From contig JADIMU010000022.1 of assembly GCA_017694495.1 (NCBI GenBank), positions 1 to 48,958 on the forward strand: 48,958 nt of DNA, given 5' to 3'. The notes beneath the pieces were generated by a model. That model made no database searches and was not told the origin of the DNA. It worked only from the letters and a program-made list of their open reading frames with translations. This document shows positions 6,180 to 7,692 of this stretch, one piece after another. The stretch is from Candidatus Aphodenecus pullistercoris (GTDB taxonomy: Bacteria; Spirochaetota; Spirochaetia; Sphaerochaetales; Sphaerochaetaceae). How positions within the stretch are numbered: position 1 is the stretch's first letter; each line of letters begins with the position of its first letter. Position numbers and translations under genes: made by a program.

Positions 6180-7616
6180 TCAGCTCCATTCTTTGAGAGC
6201 GGTTTCAAAATCCGCCTTGAAGCGGTCAGGATCCATCGAGGTGACCTCCATCGGCCAACGCTTGATGTATTCCGGAATTGTGTCGTACTTGGGCACTTCC
6301 AGACAGGCGTAGGCATAGTTCGCGATGTAGTCCTCATCTTCGATTCCACAGGCTCTGAGATGGGCATCGACAAGTGCCTCTACGAGTTCATTTCCCTCCT
6401 TTCCCTCAAGCTGATCATAGAACTCTAGGAAGTCCGTCTTCTCCAGCTTCTCACGACTCGTCACGCTGGCGAAGTCAGGTCCTTCAGCATAGCCACCATC
6501 ACCAGTAGTCTGTGCCGCCGCACTCTTCCCACCACTCCAACTGAAGATGACGGGGTTCGTGTTGACGGCATTGCCCAGTTTGCGCATGCCATCCTTCACT
6601 TCGTGGGCTTCAAAGCCCTCGTCAATCTCCTCAAGGCTCGCCGCCATGAAGTCGTCGTAGGATGAGAAGCCGCCTTCATAGCCTCTGCTCAGATTCTGGT
6701 AATTTGCGTACATGTATTTGGAAACACCGAAGAGGAAGTCGTCGTCCATCGCCTCGGCCTCGGAGCGTGTATCAATGACGTAATCACGATCACCTCTCAG
6801 TCCCGCAATCTGGTCATAGATGTCTTGGAGGTCGAAGAGGTCCGATCCTCTGACCTTGTCGGCATGGATGAAGGACTGGAAGAGGTCCTTGTCGCTTCTA
6901 CCGCTTATCCAGGCTCTGTTGAATGAGATGCCCTGTGTTGCCTCGCCACTCTGGCTGTCGAACTTGCCAAGCCAGATCCAGTCGACCAGGGCGTCCTCCT
7001 CAATCTTGCCATCAGGCCCAAGCTGACCGAAGGAGAACTGGCCCACCTTGTTCAGGTTCCTGACATCGATGTCCTGGAACTCAAGAGCTATGATGAAGGG
7101 CGTCGGAATGTATTCCACACCATGGATAATGTTCACCGGCGCCACAGCGACGAGCTGTCTGTAGGAAAAGCGCTTGCTGTCCTTGTTGTAGTAGTACTGG
7201 ATCAGGCCAACAGGATTCTTACCATACCAGATCCGGTATTGCATGAACCATCCATCGTCGTTCTCCCTCCAGGTGTCTGTCATGGCCTCGACGTCGAAAC
7301 CTATGAGGCTGAACCTTCCCCTCTCCTCGGCTTCAGCCTTGACGGAGTCGAAGTTGTTCATCTTCAGCTCCTCGAAGCCTATCATAGCAGGCAGGGATTG
7401 CATGATCGCGCCCGAGCGCCAAGGGTCGTCTCCCCAGACACCGCCAGTTGGCATCTCAGTTATTCCGCGGCTCCCCCCCCCGTTATCGTAATTCTCAGCA
7501 CTGGCGAAAATCGGGACGACGATATTCTCATCACCAACATCCTTTGTGACATCTGGCGAGCACCCTGCGAGCATGCAAGCCAGAAGAGCAGACAGAACAA
7601 TGACAATTCTTCTCAT
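6180..7616 (-). CDS. Large lipoprotein of unknown function with in-frame G9 tract
   Basis: 478 residues. Residues 1-19 are a lipoprotein signal: charged MRR, a hydrophobic core and LAGC with Cys19 as the lipidation site, so the protein is membrane-anchored outside the cytoplasm. I do not recognise the mature domain; it is acidic, rich in Tyr/Trp/Phe and contains no obvious repeats. The ribosome site AAAGGAG is 8 bases before ATG 7616. Codons 46-48 are GGG GGG GGG (bases 7481-7473), a nine-G homopolymer close to the 5' end. GC content and codon use are visibly lower and more mixed than in neighbours, consistent with acquisition or relaxed selection. It stands alone between the ligase gene and divergent folC. 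Confidence 0.75.
   Translation of the reverse strand: MRRIVIVLSALLACMLAGCSPDVTKDVGDENIVVPIFASAENYDNGGGSRGITEMPTGGVWGDDPWRSGAIMQSLPAMIGFEELKMNNFDSVKAEAEERGRFSLIGFDVEAMTDTWRENDDGWFMQYRIWYGKNPVGLIQYYYNKDSKRFSYRQLVAVAPVNIIHGVEYIPTPFIIALEFQDIDVRNLNKVGQFSFGQLGPDGKIEEDALVDWIWLGKFDSQSGEATQGISFNRAWISGRSDKDLFQSFIHADKVRGSDLFDLQDIYDQIAGLRGDRDYVIDTRSEAEAMDDDFLFGVSKYMYANYQNLSRGYEGGFSSYDDFMAASLEEIDEGFEAHEVKDGMRKLGNAVNTNPVIFSWSGGKSAAAQTTGDGGYAEGPDFASVTSREKLEKTDFLEFYDQLEGKEGNELVEALVDAHLRACGIEDEDYIANYAYACLEVPKYDTIPEYIKRWPMEVTSMDPDRFKADFETALKEWS
7473..7481 (-). repeat. G9 homopolymer tract inside lipoprotein gene
   Basis: Nine consecutive G on the coding strand (C on the plus strand) encode Gly46-Gly48. With one G lost the frame reaches TAA four codons beyond the tract; with one G gained it reaches TGA six codons beyond it. 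The sequenced allele is in frame (ON). Confidence 0.9.
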
Positions 7617-7692
7617 GTCAACATTTCTCCTTTTGTCTTACGTATCTCCATCTTCACGCAAGATGGCATTTGGCGCAAGCTTCCCCCTCGCC

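Follow-up and report, generated by a model that had tools for sequence, protein, structure and literature searches.

The window gene and its G9 tract

Does a run of nine guanines close to the start of a lipoprotein gene act as a switch, or is it an ordinary stretch of glycine codons? The question is raised by a gene of 478 codons on the minus strand (6180..7616) of the window, that is, of the whole 48,958-nucleotide stretch of DNA analysed here. An uninterrupted G9 tract (C9 on the plus strand; 7473..7481, minus strand) occupies codons 46–48 and is in frame, i.e. ON, as assembled. A likely ribosome binding site, AAGGAG (7627..7632, minus strand), lies upstream of the gene, and the product begins with MRRIVIVLSALLACMLAGC, where the signal peptide MRRIVIVLSALLACMLAG (codons 1–18; 7563..7616, minus strand) with the lipobox LAGC leads to the codon for Cys19 (7560..7562, minus strand), the residue predicted to be lipidated. 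Type II signal peptide, lipobox and cysteine mark the product as a bacterial lipoprotein by the sequence and a simple lipobox rule; the Pfam profile LPAM_1 gives 10.7 bits on the protein, under its cut-off of 20.

The tract is a slippable homopolymer near the 5′ end of the reading frame, and both slipped frames are closed within six codons: loss of one G leads to a TAA (7460..7462, minus strand), gain of one G to a TGA (7456..7458, minus strand). It is coding and lies 135 bp past the start codon, unlike the promoter-spacer type represented by tp0126 and porA. The GC content of the gene is 53.8%, against 59–63% in seven neighbouring genes and 60.3% in the window. A preliminary description had reported the tract at these codons, the immediate closure of both slipped frames, the lower GC content and the lack of a recognized domain, and was right in all its statements on the sequence.

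The protein belongs to no Pfam family above the cut-off, to no NCBIfam family and to no PADLOC family. A sequence search of the PDB gave a best E value of 0.37, and a Foldseek search gave 0.63, with no confident match. The best VIA-align result, an outer-membrane channel (PDB: 4rl8; Z 6.3 over 186 residues, rmsd 4.9), falls within the tool's stated noise range, and we therefore claim no fold. The suggestion that the product is a surface antigen holds in so far as it is a predicted lipoprotein with neither a known domain nor a confident fold match; its location at the surface is putative.

In the AlphaFold2 model (pLDDT 83, pTM 0.86), residues 44–49 are disordered (pLDDT below 50). By alignment and model, residues 45–49 (7470..7484, minus strand) lie within this linker directly before a conserved S-R-G, a predicted position at which the glycines should cost little and extra ones would be tolerated.

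Run lengths in the genome

Counted as exact runs on both strands of the 2.07 Mb genome, G-runs of six number 118 and those of seven only two; runs of eight are absent, five runs reach nine, three reach ten, and no run is longer. The distribution is bimodal, so that the class of 9–10 is not the tail of a population of random runs, and judged on run lengths over the whole genome the tract goes beyond chance. When the window is shuffled by dinucleotides, 2.8 matches to G8 are expected, which would not by itself dismiss a chance origin, but this null is the wrong one here because the genome avoids G-runs; the genome-wide distribution rules chance out.

Homologues of the window gene

A profile built from one of our alignments of the family (A1) found members in 19 of the taxonomic family's 139 genomes, spread over 6 of its 22 genera. 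Scanning GTDB contigs with the window protein as a single query returned no match, and scanning them with a second alignment (A2) returned three loci whose sequences are the same as genomes already in the set, hence no new strain. At 7 of 18 homologous loci a G or C run of at least eight lies in the interval from −100 to +200 around the start, where 0.16 would be expected from the other 69 kb of these loci, which hold two such runs (Poisson P about 4e-10, a value that ignores shared ancestry). The homologue in genome G022 was excluded from these statistics because a contig end cuts its 5′ end and a TAG precedes its tract.

The position of the run varies: it is coding in the window gene and in the homologues of G086 and G093, and upstream of the start codon in those of G072 (C10), G098 and G105. 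In G086 a G9 run occupies the linker corresponding to that of the window gene and is out of frame, with MKRRFLFMFLIIASIFLFTSC...FATAEVS leading into it and the remainder (ARGLMDMG..., 402 codons) continuing in another frame, and the reading frame of the G093 homologue breaks at a G8 directly after the lipobox. We read both homologues as probable OFF states, subject to assembly error, so that with the in-frame window gene both ON and OFF forms would be present among homologous genes. The G075 homologue also has a G9 at this linker, with the upstream part of the gene missing as assembled. The tract is absent from the homologues of G005, G006, G014, G023 and others, and switching is thus not universal in the family.

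These alignments bear on one alternative, namely that the run simply encodes three linker glycines, written with GGG codons by happenstance, and does not switch. The run is indeed in frame and in a linker predicted to be flexible and disordered, as such an account would have it. However, the linker that holds the window GGG codons, flanked by a conserved P-x-F and the S-R-G, is variable, and at this site the homologues have no glycine block. GGG is a minority glycine codon in the gene and its neighbours, and of the 44 glycine codons of the gene only six are GGG, three of them in the tract. Because the G086 run occupying this linker is out of frame, it cannot be there for the sake of glycine, and a glycine linker would not account for a genome in which runs of 7–8 are nearly absent while runs of 9–10 exist. 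We consider this explanation very improbable.

Our comparison covers one genome per species and consists of metagenome-assembled genomes (MAGs), in which a homopolymer count may be off by one, and each single OFF call is weakened accordingly. A second alternative goes further and takes the tract lengths and frame breaks as a whole to be assembly errors. Several contigs of genome G001 break off some 80 bp away from a G9 preceded by a sequence they have in common, and the loci in G022 and G075 are odd at the tract, all of which would fit. Yet assembly errors alter the lengths of tracts; they do not put them in promoter spacers or past signal peptides. Matches to the promoter pattern described below also occur in single-contig genomes of the phylum sample, and the frame is intact across the window tract, leaving this alternative exceedingly unlikely.

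Poly-G tracts in the genome and in related spirochaetes

Seven further tracts of 9–10 G occur in the same genome (L009, L010, L011, L013, L014, L015 and L017). One (L014, also L133; contig C57, C57:8667-8675) lies in a gene for a Wzi-like outer-membrane protein (PF14052) as an in-frame C9 just past the signal peptide. In its paralogue (L013, also L132; contig C54, C54:9915-9923) the frame changes exactly at the G9: in one frame it encodes 130 N-terminal residues matching L014, in another the downstream 452 codons match L014 (30% over 418), and the gene is therefore OFF as assembled. Two tracts fit the promoter-spacer type, namely a G10 flanked by TTGACT and TACCAT, ahead of a gene for a BspA-type leucine-rich lipoprotein (L015; C60:18678-18687), and a G9 flanked by TTGACA and TAGACT, ahead of a gene for a small membrane protein (L009; C9:4664-4672). 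The tract of L010 (contig C16) is in frame within an acyltransferase gene, which does not encode a lipoprotein, and those of L011 and L017 (contigs C27 and C61) have no evident gene.

Runs of at least nine are present in 15 of the 16 genomes of the genus. Among 97 tract-centred loci from these genomes, 37 of 69 candidate lipoprotein starts, called by the simple lipobox rule, fall within −135 to +131 bp of the tract, most of the 37 being 36–58 bp downstream of it; elsewhere there are about 1–3 per 200-bp bin. Many tracts of the genus lie in the spacer of a sigma70-like promoter, in which TTGACA is followed by 6–10 bases, the G-run and then TANNNT. Such an arrangement, with TTGAC upstream and TANNNT downstream, accompanies 23 of the 97 tracts, compared with 0.03% of shifted positions. 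The pattern TTGACN{5,14}G7N{0,5}TANNNT gave 28 matches in the genus (control 0), about 320 in the taxonomic family (summed control 6; in 57 of 139 genomes) and about 213 in the phylum sample (summed control 22; in 80 of 296 genomes).

Related genomes contain entire families of lipoprotein genes which have a poly-G promoter and signal peptide in common and differ in the mature part. Examples of such multigene families are L233-L240 (G076), L241-L245 (G077), L246-L249 (G071) and L250-L251 (G078), with G-counts of 8–11 between near-identical flanks. For paralogues in relatives whose flanks are identical (56+118 and 45+92 bases), the G-count is the sole difference (10/9 and 8/9, respectively), which makes tract length the fastest-changing site in these genes.

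It could still be argued that the tract, though prone to slip as a mutational hot spot, has no selected function and is a neutral or decaying site; the two tracts of the same genome without an evident gene (L011 and L017) and the many homologues lacking a tract agree with this. The strong concentration of tracts at lipoprotein starts and in promoter spacers, and their recurrence in divergent homologues of the same gene, are nevertheless hard to obtain without selection, and we regard a purely neutral tract as unlikely.

Proposed mechanism and relation to known systems

With the alternatives weighed, our preferred reading is that the window G9 is a simple-sequence contingency locus, in which the lipoprotein would undergo translational phase variation by slipped-strand mispairing as one member of a lipoprotein phasome; on the sequence evidence we put its probability at roughly 0.83. 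The preliminary description had proposed phase variation, and this is upheld by the bimodal run lengths, the poly-G at the 5′ end of homologues, the out-of-frame copies, the association with lipoprotein starts and the G-counts of paralogues.

Slipped-strand mispairing during replication would add Gs to the tract or remove them. At G9, and at lengths that are multiples of three away, the lipoprotein would be made (ON), whereas at G8 or G10 a stop would follow within six codons of the tract (OFF). Because translation would by then have covered the signal peptide and some 30 more residues, only a short peptide would be expected in the OFF state. The window switch would thus be translational, whereas many tracts of the genus look transcriptional, acting through spacer length. 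Coding and promoter-spacer switches on lipoprotein and outer-membrane genes together may generate variety of the envelope from cell to cell. We infer slippage and its rate, ON/OFF expression in this species, surface exposure and a selective benefit.

The mechanism is already known from Neisseria, Campylobacter and Treponema pallidum, and the window gene would be a further case of it. Intragenic poly-G contingency genes are found in Campylobacter. They also occur in Neisseria, for example hmbR and hpuAB (PMC3786947). The window gene resembles those of both genera in having poly-G within the reading frame and an on/off frameshift; it differs in that gene and phylum are unrelated and that switching was measured there and is inferred here. 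In T. pallidum, poly-G phase variation concerns tprE/G/J, tprL and tp0126, tracts also occur inside open reading frames, and the tract of tp0126 lies between the −35 and −10 elements, with the best transcription at a distance of 17 nt (PMC7864442). The likeness is close: a spirochaete, poly-G of 8–10, genes for envelope proteins and many tracts per genome, and the promoter-spacer tracts of the genus match tp0126. Unlike tp0126, however, the window tract is coding and its effect would be translational, and unlike the T. pallidum genes the window family encodes a lipoprotein without a known domain in an uncultured lineage, where switching is predicted from the sequence. Homopolymeric tracts at the 5′ end have also been described as a means of reversible gene inactivation, e.g. 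in Listeria inlA, in a survey of poly-A/T (PMC2831843). The 5′ position and the early truncation upon slippage are the same; in contrast to that survey, the tracts here are poly-G of 9–10 and tied to lipoprotein genes.

Our literature search, limited in scope and no proof of novelty, did not find this locus, its protein family or the extent of such tracts in this group of uncultured spirochaetes, nor a paper joining Sphaerochaeta with phase variation; a narrow search on gut spirochaetes gave no match. Poly-G phase variation, studied in the agent of syphilis, would thereby be extended to an uncultured spirochaete genus in which it appears systematic. Envelope variation in uncultured spirochaetes becomes testable straight from existing reads, and lipoprotein genes called “pseudogenes” or missing in such genomes may be OFF states.

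With less confidence, though we lean towards it, spirochaetes at large, far beyond T. pallidum, may share one contingency architecture: lipoprotein genes would carry poly-G in the TTGACA..TANNNT spacer or immediately past the signal peptide, frequently as members of multigene families that keep the same promoter and signal peptide while the mature proteins differ. On this view the lipoprotein phasomes of uncultured spirochaetes would be large, and switching in the window family would take place at either level, with poly-G gained several times over at one and the same linker in divergent homologues.

Additional observations

In the phylum sample, genomes of other spirochaete families hold numerous promoter-spacer matches each, e.g. 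22 in G414, 13 in G314 and 11 each in G245 and G310. In the G075 locus (L155; G075:C1, around 1557) the homologue begins at its G9 right behind the end of an ABC-transporter gene, the signal peptide being missing, an arrangement due either to recombination or to misassembly at the tract. At four contig ends of G001 (L103, L105, L106 and L107) one sequence is common just before the G9 and the sequences after it differ, which points either to repeated sequence or to faulty assembly at poly-G.

Further tract-bearing genes of the genus encode a DNA methylase, two acyltransferases and a LytTR regulator. Genes of these kinds are typical of phase-variable gene sets. A DNA methylase gene (L083:1356-2010; G008:C1:136209) has a frame that breaks at a G9, and a gene with a DNA methyltransferase-like start (DPPY motif; L065:2001-2101) contains two G9 runs (G005:C1:9765 and 9857); both are possible phasevarions.
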